From Motilimonas sp. E26 (lineage in GTDB: Bacteria; Pseudomonadota; Gammaproteobacteria; Enterobacterales; CBDFNC01): 64,000 nt of DNA. Positions 31,807-32,888 of the stretch are shown in pieces; positions within the stretch are counted from its first letter, which is position 1, and every line of letters starts with the position of its first letter. Location of the stretch: assembly GCF_021278025.1 (NCBI RefSeq), contig NZ_JAIBHJ010000021.1, positions 1 through 64,000 of the forward strand. Direction: 5' to 3'. The translations under genes were made by a program, and so were the position numbers. The notes beneath the pieces were generated by a model. That model searched no databases, was not told the origin of the DNA, and saw only the letters and a program-made list of their open reading frames with translations.

Positions 31807-32001
31807 CTATTCTTCATCTGAATTAACGATGACTTCTAGTCGGTTTGTTAGTTCATTTGCGTGTAAATGAATATGAATAGGATGGCAACATTGACGGCAA
31901 TCTTCGTAAAAATCTTGATCCCCATTACTGGCGTCGAGAGATACGTCAGTGTGATTACCACAAATAGGGCAAGTAATTGATGCTTCATAAAAGTTGATCA
32001 T
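31807..32001 (-). CDS. CPXCG-motif cysteine-rich protein
   Basis: 64 residues with CPICG near residue 11 and a second pair CRQCCHP near residue 35, a rubredoxin/zinc-ribbon-like arrangement typical of the CPXCG cysteine-rich family. Role unknown, probably a single zinc site. AAGAGGTGTAGC precedes the ATG. It follows the fructosamine-kinase-like gene by 23 bp and is probably co-transcribed. Confidence 0.85.
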   Translation of the reverse strand: MINFYEASITCPICGNHTDVSLDASNGDQDFYEDCRQCCHPIHIHLHANELTNRLEVIVNSDEE

Positions 32002-32024: not shown

Positions 32025-32888
32025 CTACAGTAACATTATTCGTTTAACCAACATTTCAGTTTTGAATTGATGGTCGCTGCCATCTTGATTACACAAGGTT
32101 AATAGATAGTATAACTGATAGATCAGTTCGCGGTCGGTGTAGTCATGGGCCAGTGGCCACACATGTTCATAACCTTGATAAAAAGACTCGGGAAATACAT
32201 TAAATAAACGGCTTCGTGCAATTTCAGCTTCGCGATCACCCCAATAGCTTGCTGTACCAAACACAACAGGCTCATCAAGATGGAAGCCAATGTTACCTAG
32301 CCATAAGTTGCCATGAAGTAGGCTAGGGGTCGGTTTATGATGGATTAATACCTGGTGGGCTTGGTCAACAATTGAGTTGATATTTCCAAATGCCATGCCA
32401 TTTTCTAAGGCTAGCTCTAGTTGCCAGCCAATGCGCTGTTCTGAAAAAAAGGTAGACCAACGTTTGGCCCATCGATTCGGTTGTACCAAGGCGCTGATGT
32501 AGTTGTCTGTGTCCCAACCGAACATTTTTTGCTCACCGTATTGATGCATACGTGCTATTTGTTCGCCAGTAGCATACCAGCTTTGATCCTTTGCATAGGA
32601 AAAGTTAAAGTATTCAAGTACCAAGTAGCTAAACGCTCTGGTGGTGCCATAACAAATTACTTTTGGACATTGGATTGTTTGGCTTTGGCTGATTTTACTT
32701 AAGTTATCGGTCTGGCAAGCAAAAAGTTCGAGTTTATCGAGCTCATCAATTTTGACAAAAAACTGTTCATGAGCACTGCTTAATCGATAAGTATGGGATA
32801 TGTTCCCATTTAATAGTGGCTTTTTCTCTATGGGTTGGAATTCTTGGTTGAGCGCGCTGCTGATGTTTTTACAGATGTCTGACCACAT
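32025..32888 (-). CDS. Fructosamine-kinase-family protein, predicted pseudokinase
   Basis: About 287 residues from the ATG at 32888, favoured by AAGGATACTTCCT and by alignment with E. coli YniA (an upstream extension to 32936 is not conserved). The fold features are all there: the ATP Lys in FFVKIDE, WSTFFSEQRIGWQLELA, and YWGDREAEIA. However, the catalytic HGDLW is HGNLW (Asn194), and the metal-binding FDPA is FGTA (Gly211). Both Asp needed for phosphotransfer in the APH/fructosamine kinase fold are missing, while Asn199 remains. It may bind ATP or ligand without kinase activity. Confidence 0.9.
   Translation of the reverse strand: MWSDICKNISSALNQEFQPIEKKPLLNGNISHTYRLSSAHEQFFVKIDELDKLELFACQTDNLSKISQSQTIQCPKVICYGTTRAFSYLVLEYFNFSYAKDQSWYATGEQIARMHQYGEQKMFGWDTDNYISALVQPNRWAKRWSTFFSEQRIGWQLELALENGMAFGNINSIVDQAHQVLIHHKPTPSLLHGNLWLGNIGFHLDEPVVFGTASYWGDREAEIARSRLFNVFPESFYQGYEHVWPLAHDYTDRELIYQLYYLLTLCNQDGSDHQFKTEMLVKRIMLL

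Follow-up and report, generated by a model that had tools for sequence, protein, structure and literature searches.

The window analysed here, a stretch of 64,000 nucleotides from the marine bacterium Motilimonas sp. E26 (contig NZ_JAIBHJ010000021.1), carries on its minus strand a gene of the fructosamine/ketosamine-kinase family, followed by a gene for a small zinc-ribbon protein. The kinase-family reading frame begins with ATG, has no internal stops and encodes 287 amino acids, of which residues 1-285 match positions 1-286 of the 288-position PF03881 profile (2.8e-94, 316 bits; curated cut-off 22.4), and this full-length match above the cut-off places the protein in the family. Protein and profile searches of the E26 genome found this single family member, with no second kinase copy able to do the chemistry, and an NCBIfam search matched neither this protein nor its CPXCG neighbour. 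The features discussed below are as follows.

31807-32001, minus strand: CPXCG cysteine-rich zinc-ribbon protein, 64 aa, directly downstream of the kinase-family gene (PF14255, 1.8e-19); probably co-transcribed, possible partner
32025-32888, minus strand: putative pseudokinase gene of the fructosamine/ketosamine-kinase family, 287 aa, open frame, PF03881, single copy
32082-32099, minus strand: residues 264-269 (TLCNQD), replacing a stretch that in intact members carries the substrate-pocket Asn264, His265 and Phe269
32256-32258, minus strand: Gly211 codon (GGT), in place of the Mg-binding Asp (human FN3K Asp234), by sequence and alignment
32307-32309, minus strand: Asn194 codon (AAC), in place of the catalytic-base Asp (human FN3K Asp217), by sequence and alignment
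32712-32714, minus strand: Gln59 codon, in place of an alphaC-type Glu that is Glu in 70/70 class controls, by sequence and alignment

The E26 protein resembles YniA and the bacterial ribulosamine/erythrulosamine 3-kinases of PF03881 in its full-length match, the HG-LW---N loop, the YWGDRE, QxNxW and FFxxxRI motifs and the ATP lysine. It retains Lys46, Ile30, Trp196 and Asn199 in addition to these motifs, and the segments that an earlier note on this DNA had described as well kept, YWGDREAEIA and WSTFFSEQRIGWQLELA, are present as quoted. It differs from the YniA-type kinases in that the base Asp, the Mg Asp, the alphaC Glu and the sugar pocket are all replaced. HGNLW begins at residue 192 and FGTA at residue 210, which puts Asn at position 194, where ketosamine 3-kinases have the catalytic-base Asp of HGD, and Gly at position 211, where they have the Mg-binding Asp of (F/Y/I)DPA. 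Alignment bears out both of these substitutions, on which the earlier note had rested its case, and reveals others that it had missed, namely Gln59, Thr in place of Pro212, and Thr264, Leu265 and Asp269 in the C-terminal helix, where the pocket residues Asn264, His265 and Phe269 are at or near 100% in the class controls. The Glu59 column is presumably that of the kinase-fold Glu paired with the ATP Lys. Asp222 is changed to Glu and Gly27 to Asn, and by alignment offset residues 264, 265 and 269 correspond to N287, H288 and F292 of human FN3K. The AlphaFold model of the E26 protein, built from 5 sequences, is poor (mean pLDDT 58.5) and lends the kinase fold no support; that fold is implied by the sequence match to the solved structure 3JR1.

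Mutants of the human enzyme indicate what these replacements would do. According to PMC11754801, neither D217N nor D234N of human FN3K is active on small or protein substrates, and ATP is bound in a D217S crystal. PMC13223202 reports that D217A and W219A retain ATP binding and do not bind a substrate analogue, of which N287, H288 and F292 are contacts. Given that D217N is inactive, Asn194 alone should be enough to prevent the known reaction. The human changes fall at the same two positions as those of E26; the former are laboratory mutations, whereas the latter are natural, conserved and combined with further changes. As judged from its residues, the E26 protein is predicted to have no kinase activity, and after the loss of Asp211 and Glu59 it probably does not bind Mg-ATP. 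Some pseudokinases with Asn in place of the base can retain residual activity; residual or altered chemistry is possible in family members that lack a catalytic Asp and keep Glu59 and Asp211, and less so in the E26 protein.

Relatives of the E26 protein are found in M. cestriensis (92% identity) and M. eburnea (77%). An alignment of YniA homologues, which had been put forward as a check on the original observation, gives HGNLW/FGTA for M. cestriensis, HGNLW/FDSA for M. eburnea, in which Asp211 is thus kept, and an intact HGDLW/FDPA for a fourth Motilimonas, G003. Asn194 and Gln59 are common to three independently assembled species and Gly211 to two, and the frame is open in all three species with the changes. 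The four Motilimonas kinases form one group in the tree (support 88), and all four, intact G003 included, have the genes arranged as CPXCG - kinase - TerB - DUF882 - L,D-transpeptidase - leuB; the E26 gene is a single-copy orthologue of the YniA-type kinases, and the orthologue at this locus is intact in one Motilimonas species. Since lost and intact kinases occupy the same locus and the loss in M. eburnea is partial, the residues were lost stepwise at one locus, so that the base, the alphaC Glu and the pocket went first and the metal Asp later. Identity between E26 and G003 is 44% for the kinase, 51% for the transpeptidase, 55% for CPXCG, 54% for TerB, 70% for DUF882 and 91% for LeuB. A second DUF882-type gene lies a few kb from the first in G003 (L044:4025-4570).

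The dN/dS of the kinase-family gene between E26 and M. cestriensis is 0.069 by YN00 and 0.040 by NG86, and it falls within the YN00 range of the neighbouring genes, from 0.002 (LeuB) to 0.117 (TerB), for which only pairs with finite YN00/NG86 values were used. There is no sign of decay in these ratios. The E26 gene is thus a homologue that has lost its catalytic residues under purifying selection, which is what characterizes a pseudokinase. The proposal of the earlier note, that the gene reflects selection for a non-catalytic role and not decay, is supported by the open frames in three species, by the omega of 0.040-0.069 and by the stepwise loss; the change is not peculiar to the E26 gene, however, and the role itself we infer.

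Similar losses recur across the order Enterobacterales as defined by GTDB, in which 394 genomes were surveyed and the family was present in 166 and absent in 228. From the 166, 133 members were read first and 15 more were added (14 intact and one split across frames and unreadable), giving 147 readable members. Asp194, Asp211 or both are gone in 33 of these 147, a fifth to a quarter of the sample; these are referred to below as lost members. By family code they comprise 17/17 members of f9, 7/32 of f21, 4/22 of f7, 3/4 of f1, 1/2 of f11 and 1/22 of f18, with none in the others, and the lost lineages have Asn, Ala, Glu, Ser or His in place of the base. Family f9 is taken as Pasteurellaceae because one of its genomes, G215, is Histophilus somni, whose protein is nearly identical to PDB 3JR1; all 17 sampled Pasteurellaceae with the gene are lost, and all 17 have an open frame. 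Family f18 lies near E. coli (yniA 81% identical), and f21 is probably Vibrionaceae, since a NorM encoded nearby closely resembles NorM chains of solved structure. On a tree of 136 rows with the catalytic columns removed, the lost label needs at least nine changes, seven of them forced by well-supported branches, as undirected counts on a quick tree. Outside the order both Asp residues are kept in 114/114 sampled members, made up of 70/70 from the class (30 best-scoring and 40 picked from lower among the matches listed), 41/41 from further in the phylum, weak members included, and L007-L009; although the sampling was not random, the contrast with the order is large. Lys46 or Glu59 differs in 4 of the 41 members from further in the phylum.

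Individual loci show how varied these sequences are. In f7, L134 keeps HGD and has Lys for the Mg Asp, and HGH and Asn are found in its sister L136; loss can thus begin at the metal site. In f11 the catalytic loop is being remodelled, with VGDMR and DPA in L093 and LGNLL and FNPA in L113. Outside the order, the ATP Lys aligns with His or Arg in three f196 members (L278, L281 and L282) that keep HGD and DPA. The frames of L235-L238 in f8 (G292, G106, G194 and G160) start past the P-loop, at position 43-51 of our own profile, with HGD and DPA kept; this would reflect either N-terminal loss or a different start, and a single internal stop is flagged in three of them. In L239 (G291) and L240 (G324) the kinase gene is split into two parts that are read in different frames, which points to broken genes or assembly errors.

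The substrate pocket changes together with the base in several of these lineages. In f21, f7 and f1 the pocket residues go along with Asp194, and close intact relatives keep the pocket. The fraction with Asn264 is 1.00 in intact versus 0.29 in lost members of f21, and 1.00 versus 0.00 in f7; for Phe269 the corresponding fractions are 1.00 versus 0.43 and 1.00 versus 0.00. Joint loss is not universal, as the Pasteurellaceae retain Asn264 and mostly Phe269. Thirteen residues, Lys46, His115, Gly124, Gln136, Asn138, Trp144, Phe147, Arg152, Glu220, Tyr240, Arg253, Tyr257 and Tyr260, show no variation across the 33 lost members (30 from outside Motilimonas and three from within it), and Asn199 is kept in all lost members except L113, which has His in that column. 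A set of this kind would be expected of a protein retained for the sake of its fold or of a binding surface.

The CPXCG gene begins at 32001, 23 bases beyond the kinase stop at 32025 and on the same strand, as the earlier note had pointed out. The arrangement is no local coincidence, as five families of the order conserve the CPXCG gene next to that of the kinase. A PF14255-like protein lies 3' of the kinase on the same strand in 4/4 Motilimonas, at all f21 loci but L028 and at 6/6 f7 loci; none lies beside the kinase in 7 f18 loci, 5 f9 loci, 29 class controls (about 1.5 kb of flank) or L007-L009. Among the 62 genomes listed with both genes, CPXCG is downstream, on the same strand and within 1.2 kb in 49, and by family the pairing holds in 49/50 from f1, f7, f11, f21 and f25 and in 0/12 from f6, f8, f10 and f23. 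The CPXCG link is thus a feature of the subclade where the losses occur. PF14255 is found in 218/394 order genomes, as against 166/394 for the kinase, so that many CPXCG genomes have no kinase, and none of the 218 matching genomes of the order sample belongs to f9 or f18. Because intact kinases are linked to CPXCG in the same way as dead ones, and f9 and f18 have no PF14255, the pairing is a lead and not proof of partnership. With no CPXCG gene in the Pasteurellaceae of the sample, the protein cannot be needed for a non-catalytic role there. The idea of CPXCG as an obligatory partner loses ground accordingly, the Pasteurellaceae kinases being base-dead and PF14255-free and CPXCG often occurring apart from the kinase. 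At the f7 loci L225, L228, L231 and L233 the kinase adjoins thrS and three further conserved small genes, which from their size and order are probably infC-rpmI-rplT. The Motilimonas kinase/CPXCG pair sits elsewhere, beside the TerB and DUF882 genes.

Several other explanations of the E26 gene can be weighed against these observations. An error of sequencing or assembly, which the earlier note had allowed for at the two codons, is rejected by the independent genomes that share the changes, M. cestriensis with its HGNLW/FGTA among them, and its probability is negligible. A single loss without convergence, through transfer of an HGN gene from a Pasteurellaceae-like donor into Motilimonas, would account for the same D-to-N change and for the best solved match of the E26 protein being 3JR1 of Histophilus somni (204.8 bits over residues 1-267). 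The identity of the E26 protein to f9, however, is 33% on average (maximum 36.6%) versus 43-45% to f25 and G003, AU tests reject a clade of the lost Motilimonas with all of f9 (p 1.0e-4) or with its HGN members (p 1.7e-41), and intact G003 has the same gene order; transfer is rejected on the AU tests and identity and is very improbable. Slow decay, in which the kinase has become dispensable and its gene is gradually being lost, would agree with the stepwise fall of the catalytic residues, the split frames of L239 and L240 and the absence of the family from 228 of the 394 order genomes. It is opposed by open frames in 33/33 lost members, by the 17 open Pasteurellaceae genes that have persisted after an old loss, by scaffold residues that are 100% kept in lost members, and by an omega of 0.03-0.16 among lost members, similar to that of intact ones. 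Median order-wide omega is 0.089 for 31 lost-member pairs versus 0.072 for 142 intact pairs, where the pairs are not independent and were taken at NG86 dS under 3 and identity of 60-98.5%, saturated pairs being left out. We regard decay as quite improbable.

The alternative with somewhat more weight is that the protein is still an enzyme, using another residue as base or performing a different chemistry in the kinase fold. A change of chemistry within this fold is exemplified by SelO and SidJ. Lys46 and, outside L113, Asn199 are kept in lost members, and Asp211 and Glu59 stay in most lost lineages, where nucleotide binding is plausible; the human D217A and D217S proteins, according to the sources cited above, bind ATP. 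Against this, the E26 protein has also given up Glu59, Asp211 and Pro212 and has Asn for Gly27, the replacement of the base varies by lineage (N, A, E, H or S) with no recurrent compensating acidic residue in the loop, and pocket residues are lost along with the base. A surviving enzymatic function is unlikely on this evidence.

We therefore favour, with a probability of about 0.75, the reading that the E26 gene is a true YniA/FN3K-type orthologue that turned pseudokinase within Motilimonas and is held by purifying selection for a non-catalytic role. The stepwise disappearance of the base Asp, the metal Asp, the alphaC Glu and most of the sugar pocket is seen in the sequences; on this model, the selected role would need a folded protein and not phosphoryl transfer. 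That role is most likely protein binding, and the pseudokinase may act as a binding or scaffold subunit through a core retained in all lost lineages, which comprises Lys46, Gln136, Asn138, Phe147, Arg152, Asn199, Glu220, Tyr257 and the region of Tyr260. The most speculative step, which we consider doubtful, would make the probably co-transcribed CPXCG zinc-ribbon protein its partner. For the order as a whole we suggest tentatively, at not quite even odds, that a YniA-type kinase took on a further function independent of catalysis at or close to the root of the subclade, CPXCG-linked in most families, and that the chemistry was then dropped at least seven to nine times, including in all sampled Pasteurellaceae, with the protein still under purifying selection and Motilimonas the most advanced case.

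Pseudokinases as such are well known. HER3 and the JH2 domain of JAK2 have HRN-type loops, with Asn for the catalytic Asp, keep the fold and have non-catalytic signalling roles; the E26 protein is like them in this Asn, but they belong to a different kinase family and have a known regulatory partner. Another parallel is Histophilus somni 3JR1, a solved kinase fold that, like E26, has Asn at the base (HGNLW) and has lost the Mg position, there to Asn (CNPA); it differs in that it keeps the alphaC Glu and Asn264, arose by a separate loss and has no CPXCG neighbour (L216). The structure (L105) was deposited as a 'putative fructosamine-3-kinase' with Asn at both catalytic Asp positions, and a passage of PMC11754801 cites it for structural similarity as bacterial FN3K. 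Neither base-less bacterial fructosamine kinases nor the CPXCG link was found mentioned in the open-licence literature, and the text of a review of bacterial pseudokinases (PMC12599244) has no match for fructosamine or FN3K.

Bacterial homologues of fructosamine kinases are annotated as deglycation enzymes by family membership alone, and between a fifth and a quarter of those sampled in the order, 3JR1 among them, are without a residue whose loss kills the human enzyme. The repeated loss of catalysis with the protein retained is strong evidence for an unrecognised non-catalytic function in this family, for which the conserved CPXCG gene offers the first candidate partner.
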